DNA from: Marinomonas sp. KMM3893
Lineage (GTDB): Bacteria; Pseudomonadota; Gammaproteobacteria; Pseudomonadales; Marinomonadaceae
DNA length: 64,000 nt
Assembly: GCF_004352855.1 (NCBI RefSeq)
Contig: NZ_SJSC01000003.1
Coordinates: 248,001 to 312,000, forward strand
Direction of reading: 5' to 3'
This document shows positions 30,981 to 43,245 of this stretch, piece after piece. Positions within the stretch are counted from its first letter, which is position 1; each line of letters starts with the position of its first letter. The notes under the pieces were generated by a model, which saw only the letters and a list, made by a program, of their open reading frames with translations, did not search any database and was not told the origin of the DNA. Made by a program: the position numbers and the translations under genes.

Positions 30981-32420
30981 TTAGCGTTGCACGCACTGCG
31001 GTTTCGCTCGCTGTTGGCGCTTTTTGAGCGCTTCGTAAAAAGGCGCATAGGTTGGTCTGTCTATGTATTTTCCATCGCCAGATTGCGCCAGCAATTTACC
31101 TTCATGCCAAGCAAGAGCACCATTACAGATGGTGGTTTCTGGAATGCCATGAATCGTCATGCCTTCAAAGATACTGTGCTCAATATTTGATTGGTGAGTT
31201 TTCGCTGATAGTGTTTTCTCAGCGTTCGGGTTCCAAATAACCAGATCAGCGTCGGCCCCAACGCGAACACAGCCTTTATCTGGGTAAATATTGAAAATCT
31301 TAGCGCTATTTGTCGACGTAAGAGCAACAAATTCATTGGGGGTGATCTTGCCTTCATTGACGCCTTTTTCCCATAGCACCATCATGCGCTCTTCGACGCC
31401 AGCTGTGCCGTTGGGGATTTGCGTGAAGTTGTCTTTACCCATGGCTTTTTGCTCACTGCAAAAGGCGCAATGGTCAGTGGCTGTGGTTTGTAACGTGCCT
31501 CCTTGCACGCCTTTCCATAAGGCATCTTGGTGATGTTTAGGTCGAAAAGGAGGGCTCATGACATGCGCCGCCGCCGTGGCCCAATCTGGGTTTTGGTAAA
31601 CGCTGTCGTTCACGGTCAAATGCCCCGCTAGCACCTCGCCAAATATCGTATGACCGTGGTCTTTTGCGTAACGAATGGCGTCGACCGCTTCTTCTGTTGA
31701 AACGTGAACCAAATACAGTGGCGCGCCTAATGTGTTGGCGATGCTAATCGCACGGTTAGCGGCTTCTCCTTCAACCGAAGAAGGTCGTGATAATGGGTGC
31801 GCTTCTGGCCCAGTAATGCCTTGTTCCATTAAAGAATTTTGTAAATGGTACACCAGCTCCCCATTTTCTGCGTGAACGGTAGGCAAGGCCCCTAATTCAA
31901 GGCACTTGGTGAAGCTTGCCACCAAGATGTCATCGGTCGCCATAATGGCATTTTTGTACGCCATAAAGTGCTTAAAGCTGTTGACACCATATTGCTTAAC
32001 CAGGGTCTCCATCTCTTTTCCGACACTGTCATCCCACCATGTAATGGCCACATGAAAGGTGTAATTTGAGTGGGCTTTTTGGGCCCATTCACGCCATTGA
32101 TGATACGCTTCTAATAGGGATTGCTGAGGGTTAGGAATAACAAAGTCAATAATACTGGTGGTGCCGCCAGCTAACGCGGCTCGGGTGCCGGAAGCAAAAT
32201 CGTCTTTGGCGACCGTGCCCATAAAAGGCAGTTGCATGTGAGTATGAGGGTCAATACCACCTGGCATAATAAGTTTACCGGTGGCGTCTAAAAGGGTTGC
32301 GTCTTGAGGTGGCGTGAGCTGTTGGCCAATTTCGACGATTTTGTTTCCTGAACACAAAATATCAGCTTGGTAAGTTTCTTCGTGGGTGACGATTGTCCCC
32401 CCTTTTATGAATAGGCTCAT
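30981..32420 (-). CDS. hydA: dihydropyrimidinase / D-hydantoinase
   Basis: A 479-residue cyclic amidohydrolase with the full binuclear metal set: His59 and His61 ([10 protein letters not shown]), the probable carboxylated Lys150 (SFKHFMAYK), His183 (TVHAENG), His239 (LVHVSTEE) and Asp316 (TATDHCAF). It opens 5,6-dihydropyrimidines to N-carbamoyl-beta-amino acids, and also hydantoins. It is the last gene of a leftward unit with the NCS1 permease and the carbamoylase, so it supplies step two of reductive pyrimidine breakdown or hydantoin use. ATG 32420 has an AAAGGA site at seven bases. No dihydropyrimidine dehydrogenase gene accompanies it. Confidence 0.93.
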
Positions 32421-32503
32421 AATGTTGTCCTTTGTTGTGTGTCTTATTGGTATTTTGAGCGTGTTATGTGACCTGTTGCTGATGAAACAGCGGCTAAATA
32501 GAG

Positions 32504-32545
32504 CGTGTTCAGAAGAGCTGCGCGCACGCTACTCTTCTGAACACG
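32504..32545 (-). repeat. 14-bp inverted repeat between permease and hydantoinase genes
   Basis: CGTGTTCAGAAGAG (32504-32517) and CTCTTCTGAACACG (32532-32545) are perfectly complementary with a 14-base GC-rich loop. It sits 34 bases after the permease stop and about 80 bases before the hydantoinase start. It could be an internal partial terminator or an RNA-stability stem that sets relative expression within the operon. Confidence 0.65.
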
Positions 32546-32578
32546 TTGCGTTATGACCAAAGAAATGTCAGATCCCCT

Positions 32579-42094: not shown

Positions 42095-42182
42095 ATGTAT
42101 TGACTGACGTTAGACCCCGTTATTGAACGGTTTTAAACCATAAAAATATTAAAAGACATCACAAGCATAAGAGGAACTCAGC

Positions 42183-43190
42183 ATGGAATTCGGTATTACC
42201 TTTAAAGGGTTTGTCAGCCCAGATCGAGCTCGAAATTTAGTCCGTCAAGCGGAAGCGGCCGGCTTTGATTACTGTTGGTTTTATGATTCACATATTTTGT
42301 GGCGTGAATCCTTTGTGGCGATGGCGATGTGCATGGAGCACACCAAAACCATGCGTTTTGGACCTTGCGTTACCAACCCAAATATTCGAGATTGGTCATT
42401 GTCTGCAAGTCTGTACGCAAGTTTGGCGCACCAAAGTAACGGTCGTTTCGACATTGGTCTAGGCCGTGGTGATTCGTCGATGCGGGTGATGGGGAAAAAA
42501 CCGGCAACATTGGCGCGTCTTGCAGAATTCACCACCAAGGTAAAAGCCATGGTACGTGGAGAAGAGGTGGAATACGGCGAATGCCCAGAGCCAGTCAAAT
42601 TACCTTGGGCAACTGGCTATGAACTACCGGTTTGGATTGGCGCATATGGGCCTAAAGCGCTGGCGACAGCGGGCGAGGTGGGTGACGGTTTGATCCTGCA
42701 AATTGGTGATCCTGATTTGGTAAAATGGTTCAAAGATCAAGCGATTAGTGCCGGAGAAAAAGCAGGCCGTGATATGTCGAATTTCAAAGTACAGGCGGCC
42801 GCGCCAGCCTACTTTGGCGACATAGATTATTGCATTGAACACACGAAATGGTTTCCTGCGATGGTGGGTAACCATGTGGCTGATATTGTCGAAAAATACG
42901 GTAATGACTCTGGATTAGTACCGAAGAGTTTAACGGATTACATTGAAAAACGTCGTGGTTACGATTATTCAAAACACGGCCAGAGTGATAATCCTTTCTT
43001 GGATTTCATTACCGAAGACATTGTGAAAAGTTTTTGTGTACTGGGCACAGTGGATGATCATATCGCACGGGTCAAAGCGCTAGAAGAAGCCGGCACCACG
43101 CAGTTTAATATCTATTTAGACAGTGGTGATGAAGAAGAGATCATCGCCCAGTATGGTCGTCATATTATTCCTCAGTTTAAAGCCATGTAA
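42183..43190 (+). CDS. LLM-class F420-dependent oxidoreductase; candidate pyrimidine (cyclic ureide) reductase
   Basis: A 335-residue luciferase-like TIM-barrel protein. It starts MEFGITFKGFVSPDRARNLV and has FYDSHILWRE, GPCVTNPNIRDWSLSAS, GRFDIGLGRGDSS and ELPVWIGAYGPKAL, typical of F420-binding members (as opposed to FMN monooxygenases). I recall a TIGRFAM F420 family named after a Colwellia protein that it resembles, but could not check this. It is last in the run of cof genes and is followed by a terminator. Given the dihydropyrimidinase and carbamoylase next door and no dihydropyrimidine dehydrogenase, an F420H2-dependent ring reduction is the leading hypothesis. RutA, a uracil-attacking flavoenzyme, belongs to the same superfamily. 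Confidence 0.85.
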   Translation: MEFGITFKGFVSPDRARNLVRQAEAAGFDYCWFYDSHILWRESFVAMAMCMEHTKTMRFGPCVTNPNIRDWSLSASLYASLAHQSNGRFDIGLGRGDSSMRVMGKKPATLARLAEFTTKVKAMVRGEEVEYGECPEPVKLPWATGYELPVWIGAYGPKALATAGEVGDGLILQIGDPDLVKWFKDQAISAGEKAGRDMSNFKVQAAAPAYFGDIDYCIEHTKWFPAMVGNHVADIVEKYGNDSGLVPKSLTDYIEKRRGYDYSKHGQSDNPFLDFITEDIVKSFCVLGTVDDHIARVKALEEAGTTQFNIYLDSGDEEEIIAQYGRHIIPQFKAM

Positions 43191-43221
43191 TGGCATTGAG
43201 TGGATACTAAGCAATACCATG

Positions 43222-43245
43222 GCCGACGTTTACGTCGGCTTTTTT
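43222..43245 (+). terminator. Rho-independent terminator closing the F420 operon
   Basis: GCCGACG (43222-43228), loop TTTA, CGTCGGC (43233-43239), then TTTTTT. It lies 32 bases beyond the LLM gene stop and is a strong end to the cofG-LLM transcript. Confidence 0.93.

Follow-up and report, generated by a model that had tools for sequence, protein, structure and literature searches.

Why should a bacterium carry the genes for coenzyme F420 synthesis directly beside genes for the breakdown of cyclic ureides? The question is raised by a 64,000-nucleotide stretch of the Marinomonas sp. KMM3893 genome (contig NZ_SJSC01000003.1, positions 248,001 to 312,000; referred to here as the window), in which positions 30981-43190 comprise two divergent units with a gene for a RutR-like TetR regulator between them. 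The leftward unit encodes an M20 amidase, an NCS1 symporter and a dihydropyrimidinase, while the rightward unit runs from the regulator gene through cofG-cofH-cofD-cofC-cofE and npdG to a gene for a luciferase-like monooxygenase (LLM)-type oxidoreductase of the family TIGR03842 (F420_CPS_4043). The role of F420 in Proteobacteria was called open in a 2021 review (PMC8498797). A sequence-only reading of the window had proposed that the arrangement points to ring catabolism as the dedicated task of F420, a proposal that the conserved neighborhood described below supports and that is narrowed here to uracil and thymine, to the reductive route and to replacement of PreA by the LLM protein. The block is very probably an F420-driven reductive pyrimidine module, with the LLM protein predicted to serve as an F420H2-dependent uracil/thymine reductase in place of PreA.

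Genes of the two divergent units

Genes were called by comparing NCBIfam profile scores with the curated cut-offs, and every gene named in the sequence-only reading of the block was found in its place. Gene identities, like the linkage, co-occurrence, absence of PreA and operator-like sites considered below, are read from the sequence. On the minus strand, the dihydropyrimidinase (positions 30981-32420; TIGR02033, 579.9 bits, cut-off 393) would perform the second step of the reductive pyrimidine (Pyd) pathway, namely, the conversion of dihydrouracil to N-carbamoyl-beta-alanine; its nearest solved chain is 5ykd, a D-hydantoinase/dihydropyrimidinase, matched over the full length (E 2.5e-226). 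The NCS1-family nucleobase symporter (32579-34063), assigned to ring uptake, scores 319 bits with the ncs1 model (cut-off 353), and a comparison with solved structures at E<=1e-5 matched it to two Mhp1 hydantoin permease sequences (E 1.9e-31). The amidase (34144-35388; TIGR01879, 418 bits, cut-off 204) is of the N-carbamoyl-beta-alanine amidohydrolase type and is assigned to step three. Although its best solved match, 5i4m, is named by family only, its solved relatives include the N-carbamoyl-beta-alanine amidohydrolase 8c46 (E 1.3e-122) and the beta-alanine synthase 1r3n (E 9.6e-87). Both the dihydropyrimidinase and the N-carbamoyl-beta-alanine amidohydrolase (beta-ureidopropionase) steps of the pathway are thus predicted to be encoded by the block.

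On the plus strand, the regulator gene (35703-36350; TIGR03613, 178.5 bits, below the RutR cut-off of 368) precedes cofG and cofH, encoding FO synthase subunits 1 (36601-37749; TIGR03550, 451.8 bits, cut-off 213) and 2 (37746-38960; TIGR03551, 508 bits, cut-off 374), cofD (38960-39919; TIGR01819, 284.9 bits, cut-off 257), cofC (39919-40578; TIGR03552, 163.2 bits, cut-off 105) and cofE, encoding F420-0:glutamate ligase (40571-41344; TIGR01916, 249.7 bits, cut-off 181). These five cof genes overlap end to end, with cofG more probably starting at the ATG at 36607, directly after GGAGAG, than at the listed GTG at 36601. A gap of 57 bases separates cofE from npdG/fno, encoding NADPH:F420 oxidoreductase (41402-42094; TIGR01915, 200.8 bits, cut-off 149.8), and a further 88 bases separate npdG from the LLM gene (42183-43190; TIGR03842, 523 bits over the full length, cut-off 295.45). 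Because the NCS1 carrier and the regulator both score below their curated cut-offs, they are named as family-like only. The possibility that the product is 3-phosphoglycerate-type F420 (3PG-F420) was considered and thought unlikely, since CofC from the window aligns a Gly (RYGTES) where 3PG-type CofC is read as having Ser162, on the available text of PMC8764529 and with the numbering of that residue being our own reading of the alignment.

The block accordingly holds steps two and three of the reductive pathway, with no known enzyme for the conversion of uracil to dihydrouracil among its genes. That reaction is otherwise catalyzed by the iron-sulfur flavoenzyme PreTA, or dihydropyrimidine dehydrogenase (DPD). 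PreA, its catalytic component, was not detected at E<=1e-20 in any of 48 genomes of the genus, that of the window included, in a search which did detect the E. coli positive control and which did not extend to PreT or the URC route. RutA was found in five of the 48 genomes, all of them lacking cofG; it was matched neither in the genome of the window (E<=1e-50) nor in any of the 25 genomes of the genus that contain cofG. The TIGR02033 dihydropyrimidinase is present in exactly these 25 genomes, with no match at E<=1e-100 in any genus genome without cofG. The TIGR03842 LLM gene is found in 24 of the 48, all among the 25; in the remaining cofG genome (G385), the operon is cut by the contig end, with cofC as the first gene, and no LLM gene was found elsewhere in that assembly. 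Because the genes form one locus, such co-occurrence within the genus counts as few events, and the comparison was therefore widened beyond Marinomonas.

The LLM protein as candidate for the first step

When an AlphaFold model of the window LLM protein (predicted local distance difference test score, pLDDT, 86.6) was compared with solved structures, the nearest fold was that of F420-dependent Mer (Z 35, 27% identity), followed by F420-dependent alcohol and glucose-6-phosphate-type dehydrogenases (Z about 28 to 31). Indeed, every one of the top 15 structural matches is an F420 enzyme. Flavin mononucleotide (FMN)-dependent monooxygenases, including RutA (Z 25), came only after these, with Mer standing some 10 Z units above RutA. 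Still, RutA shares the LLM fold and has been crystallized with uracil (6sgl), such that the window protein could be viewed as an FMN-dependent, RutA-like uracil monooxygenase, with F420 serving something else. This is very improbable, not only given the ranking of folds but also because the RutA model TIGR03612 is not among the 21 NCBIfam families matched by the LLM protein at E<=0.001, no Rut enzyme was matched by the block proteins scanned, and NpdG and a full cof set are encoded in the same operon. Moreover, dihydropyrimidinase requires a reduced ring.

Identification of the LLM protein as Mer itself was rejected, as the TIGR03555 score is 122.6 bits against a cut-off of 348.7 and as Glu6, described as the catalytic residue of Mer in the accessible part of PMC11094777, is replaced. 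Among 43 relatives, 23 have Thr at this position and 20 have Cys, a Streptomyces homolog has Val, and no catalytic residue can be assigned. The likeness to Mer extends to Asp96 and the GxGxGD region, both of which are retained. Asp97 of the LLM protein sits at the place of Mer Asp96, a residue that contacts the pterin pyrimidine ring in a published ternary-complex model, as far as the available text of the same source describes it (PMC11094777). Asp97 and Gln173 do not vary among the 43 relatives and also occur in the Streptomyces protein, making them candidates for residues that hold uracil. From the best folds being F420 enzymes, from the presence of cof genes and npdG in the same operon, and from the finding of cofG in 36 of 38 LLM genomes outside the genus, we infer that the LLM protein uses F420H2.

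Linkage and distribution beyond Marinomonas

A scan of GTDB contigs yielded 199 LLM relatives. The locus counts given here rest on the best 80 of the 199, with two plasmid loci (L012 and L013) added in some counts. Sixty-one of the 80 are from outside Marinomonas; among these, the search for PreA covered 50 genomes, and those for TIGR02033 and cofG covered 38. Apart from Marinomonas, the hosts comprise Oceanospirillum, Marinobacterium, Vibrio, Alteromonas, Halomonas, Pseudomonas, Halopseudomonas, Amphritea, Thalassolituus, Herbaspirillum, Burkholderia, Paracoccus, Limimaricola, Leisingera, Ruegeria and others. The family is rare in a class-wide sample, being present in 2 of 369 genomes, and a scan of viral contigs revealed no LLM relative. 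In the flanks of the best 80 loci, npdG was found in 76 and cofG in 69, an amidase or dihydropyrimidinase gene in 52, and a gene for an amidase, dihydropyrimidinase, aminotransferase or PntB in 67. Of the places where the sequence-only reading had suggested that the neighborhood be sought, it was found in Marinomonas, in many other gammaproteobacteria and in several alphaproteobacteria; no Colwellia appeared among the best 80 loci.

Whole-genome searches of the 38 non-Marinomonas LLM genomes revealed a TIGR02033 gene in 37 and cofG in 36. The two without a cofG match are metagenome-assembled genomes (MAGs), in one of which the contig begins inside cofG (L036), while the other contains cofH with no cofG (L097). 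The linkage is likewise conserved beyond the strain: TIGR02033 and cofG matches fall in the same 25 of the 48 genus genomes and, in 25 of the 36 genomes of other genera, lie on one contig and always within 18 kb of each other, being on different contigs in the remaining 11.

Gene order is far from fixed. The units are divergent in Marinomonas, the amidase gene lies behind the LLM gene in Halomonas and Pseudomonas, and Herbaspirillum presents a single long operon of NCS1, dihydropyrimidinase, cofGHDCE, npdG, LLM and amidase genes, with linkage being kept in rearranged orders across gamma-, beta- and alphaproteobacteria. In a tree of 56 of 82 LLM sequences, near-copies having been dropped, the starred branches force at least two changes of the amidase-downstream arrangement; the other arrangement labels depend partly on where the examined flanks end. 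At two loci, the LLM gene directly follows a dihydropyrimidinase gene (L076) or an NCS1 gene (L096) and no cof gene lies in the flank; in both genomes, cofG is matched on another contig, in a frame of 847 or 840 residues that apparently encodes a fused CofGH.

In Streptomyces sp. BHT-5-2 (cluster at L015:2067-9011), a dihydropyrimidinase gene (554 bits) is followed, after 11 bases, by a TIGR03842 gene (590.5 bits; product 44% identical to the window LLM protein). Upstream of this pair, at a distance of a few kilobases, are genes for an aminotransferase and a nitrilase-type amidase, the latter having N-carbamoylputrescine amidohydrolase and beta-ureidopropionase among its solved relatives. In this one strain, the third step may thus be performed by an unrelated amidase, with the LLM-dihydropyrimidinase pairing retained, which suggests that some Actinobacteria, too, have an F420 pyrimidine route. 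A search with the Streptomyces LLM sequence found no further actinobacterial plasmid.

These observations bear on the possibility that F420 and pyrimidine genes merely travel together on an island without sharing a job. The unit is carried on plasmids in Leisingera, a Paracoccus alcaliphilus plasmid holds cofGHDCE-npdG-LLM with no recognized pyd gene within 15 kb (as considered for the plasmid locus only), and only 24 of the 48 genus genomes contain the LLM gene, all as hitchhiking would have it. Against it stand the survival of the linkage through changes in gene order in three proteobacterial classes, the persistence of the LLM gene beside pyd genes where the cof genes are elsewhere (L076 and L096), the Streptomyces LLM-dihydropyrimidinase pair and, as described below, one type of operator before both operons in gammaproteobacteria. 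Hitchhiking is therefore considered highly unlikely. Correlations between LLM and neighbor distances (r 0.66 to 0.89) leave common descent uncontrolled and are not used as evidence.

Three further loci deserve mention. On a Caballeronia plasmid, a 128-residue LLM piece (L014:12001-12384) adjoins genes for a Zn-dependent hydrolase and an annotated alanine dehydrogenase as well as a PntB piece; IS66 genes are close by, and the locus resembles a copy of the unit in decay. A record assigned to Nocardioides marinus (L089) holds a Leisingera-like copy, with its LLM protein being 77% identical to that of the window, and its PntA and TetR proteins 81% and 92% identical, respectively, to those of Leisingera; this assembly is possibly mislabelled or contaminated. 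Finally, in a MAG (G446; L112:3986-6080), an apparently fused CofGH gene has two additional F420-type LLM genes beside it, for which TIGR03559 and TIGR03841 are the best models, and F420 therefore probably has other users there.

Whether the LLM protein and PreA substitute for each other was considered in 181 genomes from the family of a Halomonas (G438), Oceanospirillum and Terasakiispira genomes being included. That the LLM, PreA and TIGR02033 searches address the same 181 genomes is inferred from the equal number and shared labels, with the genomes lacking a match being listed in part. The LLM gene was found in nine genomes and PreA in 58, never together. A TIGR02033 match of at least 565 bits, a line set after the scores had been seen, was obtained in 68 genomes, corresponding to the 58 with PreA, the nine with LLM and one with neither (G604). 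Among the 123 PreA-negative genomes, 10 reach this score, nine of which are the LLM genomes (P = 7.6e-13). At 580 bits, the TIGR02033 genomes comprise 58 with PreA, eight with LLM and no other. This distribution is read as one enzyme apparently substituting for another. PreA was found in none of the 35 gammaproteobacterial LLM genomes, one of which (L071) was placed there by the LLM tree.

Proposed control, substrate and role

Two palindromes in the window are alike and resemble TTGACCANNTGGTCAA, which we take to be the RutR box consensus, and are candidates for RutR-like operators based on position and conservation, namely, TTTACCAAAAGGTAAA (35431-35446), upstream of the amidase operon, and TATACCAAATGGTAAA (36560-36575), upstream of cofG. 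Such a site was found upstream of cofG in every gammaproteobacterial locus that could be assessed, comprising 18 from Marinomonas (shuffled mean 0.5) and 33 from other hosts (shuffled mean 1.4). Upstream of the amidase gene, it was found in 17 of 18 Marinomonas loci, 15 of 28 other gammaproteobacterial loci and 2 of 7 alpha- and betaproteobacterial loci. For genes within the operon, the counts were 2/76 for cofH, 2/77 for cofD, 2/78 for npdG, 7/77 for cofE, 12/75 for cofC and 13/81 for LLM, with random 300-base pieces giving 385/4100. A scan of the window with the strict RutR consensus returned six matches at up to three mismatches, where 3.56 were expected. As such, the operator signal appears to lie in position and conservation rather than in the number of strict-consensus matches.

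The window regulator, classed by its score (178.5 vs 368 bits) as RutR-like and not RutR proper, retains all five residues (W77, Y97, W167, Q171 and Q179) listed as uracil contacts of E. coli RutR in the available portion of PMC10891134, and probably senses uracil. Given sites before both operons together with conserved uracil contacts, F420 synthesis appears to be part of a uracil-controlled regulon, in gammaproteobacteria at least.

Genes linked to the unit in other hosts also speak to the substrate. Cytosine deaminase and cytosine permease genes are linked in Halomonas (L065), while genes for the omega-aminotransferase AptA and a CoA-acylating methylmalonate-semialdehyde dehydrogenase are linked in Pseudomonas (L072) and Vibrio xiamenensis (L109) and are read as an onward route for beta-alanine and beta-aminoisobutyrate. 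In G460, NupC and thymidine phosphorylase genes lie near the dihydropyrimidinase gene. The cytosine deaminase, AptA and thymidine phosphorylase genes point to uracil, and the substrate is accordingly most likely uracil (and thymine), degraded by the reductive pathway. The transhydrogenase genes pntAB are linked in Leisingera and Halomonas, as would be expected if NpdG depends on a supply of NADPH. In Amphritea (L078:11127-11735), a gene for GTP cyclohydrolase II, an early enzyme toward ribityl-diaminouracil, the precursor of FO, lies between the LLM and amidase genes, and possibly boosts the supply of F420 precursor.

The module could alternatively serve ring catabolism, with the LLM protein using F420, on a natural substrate other than uracil, such as thymine only, some modified pyrimidine or a different cyclic ureide that would then be opened by dihydropyrimidinase. 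Dihydropyrimidinases, like NCS1 carriers, take a range of rings, and the solved relative of the window carrier is a hydantoin permease. Furthermore, PreA is also encoded in 12 of the 50 LLM genomes searched outside Marinomonas, 11 of them alphaproteobacterial and the other from a Burkholderia, and in all eight of these examined, a TIGR02033 gene lies near PreA and at least one more lies elsewhere, on the cofG contig in three, as if the substrates of two systems differ. However, the RutR-type uracil-contact residues of the regulator, the linked cytosine deaminase and omega-aminotransferase genes and the absence of PreA from the 35 gammaproteobacterial LLM genomes all argue for uracil, such that a different natural substrate is thought unlikely.

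Several of these and other observations weigh against assigning the LLM protein as the reductase that replaces PreA. Where LLM and PreA occur in one genome, the systems are either redundant or different in substrate or conditions. In the Halomonas-family sample, mutual exclusion of the two alone has a chance P of 0.028, the 565-bit line was drawn post hoc, and at the search threshold of E<=1e-130, 91 genomes contain TIGR02033, 24 of which (G604 included) have neither reductase. The Paracoccus alcaliphilus plasmid belongs here as well, as do a MAG (L102) with no recognized pyd genes near the LLM gene and with its best hydantoinase only 35% identical to that of the window, and a Bermanella MAG (G641) with no TIGR02033 gene at E<=1e-130. 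The operator-like site precedes cofG in only 5 of 20 alpha- and betaproteobacterial loci (shuffled mean 0.8). To these is added the lack of an assignable catalytic residue.

If the block is nevertheless an F420-driven reductive pyrimidine module, uracil, and probably thymine too, would enter via the NCS1 permease. NpdG would reduce F420 with NADPH, which linked PntAB may supply in some hosts, and the TIGR03842 LLM protein would use F420H2 as hydride donor to reduce the pyrimidine ring, yielding dihydrouracil from uracil or dihydrothymine from thymine. The dihydropyrimidinase would then open the ring and the M20 amidase would release beta-alanine, CO2 and ammonia. The RutR-like, uracil-binding repressor is predicted to switch on the pyd and F420 synthesis operons together, and F420 would therefore be made when pyrimidine is present. 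Paracoccus denitrificans DSM 413 contains the unit with no PreA match; for this strain, the model therefore predicts trace amounts of F420 when pyrimidine is absent.

Steps two and three of this scheme are ordinary, being homologous to those of the PreTA/PydA pathway, and some loci also carry genes fitting the onward beta-alanine route; the new element would be step one, which is assigned to an unrelated LLM barrel protein with F420H2 as electron carrier, where the known enzyme uses FMN and iron-sulfur centers with NAD(P)H or ferredoxin. The Rut pathway opens the ring oxidatively with FMN and O2. It resembles the present system in the regulator, the operator and the LLM fold of RutA, which acts on uracil, and differs in being oxidative and in that RutA was found in none of the 25 genomes of the genus with cofG. 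An unusual electron donor is also found in the Pyd pathway of Clostridium, which, as described in the accessible text of PMC7332683, relies on a ferredoxin-dependent PydA; this is, however, a PydA homolog, for which the window's genome has no match at E<=1e-20. For uric-acid clusters of Chloroflexota, the available text of PMC12507026 suggests a putative F420-dependent luciferase-family reductase, proposed, as here, from gene neighborhood to replace a PydA-like ring reductase, although in a purine pathway, in another phylum and as a bioinformatic remark. In Streptomyces, genetics and nuclear magnetic resonance show that the putative F420/FMN oxidoreductase SSGG-03002/NpsU reduces the C5-C6 bond of the uracil moiety of mureidomycin, albeit in antibiotic synthesis and with in vitro activity not obtained, according to the part of PMC10714638 available. 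Both of these proteins are likened to the LLM protein by description only. In the literature searched, with most subscription journals outside its coverage, no proposal that an F420-dependent enzyme reduces uracil in the Pyd pathway was recognized.

Several neighbors of the block were also noted. A phosphoenolpyruvate mutase/isocitrate-lyase-like gene (43448-44311, plus strand), directly behind the LLM gene, was excluded from the unit, as such a gene is near LLM in 3 of the 80 loci. On the minus strand, positions 44467-45150 give a weak match to the conjugal transfer protein TraL (73 of 360 bits), and positions 47303-49918 encode an 871-residue protein whose five matches are all weak, lie inside residues 6-296 and for the most part concern cyclic-nucleotide-type regulators.

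Taken as a broader claim, TIGR03842 is probably the first F420-dependent dihydropyrimidine dehydrogenase, non-homologous to PydA, with pyrimidine catabolism being the main reason for F420 in Proteobacteria with cofGHDCE-npdG-LLM, with synthesis of the cofactor being induced by uracil, and with some Actinobacteria using the same enzyme with their own F420. Such a role would propose a function for an enzyme family whose function is unassigned and would add an unrelated enzyme to a textbook pathway, the human counterpart of which also clears fluorouracil. If true, F420 in these Proteobacteria would serve uracil reduction, with its synthesis placed under a pyrimidine sensor.

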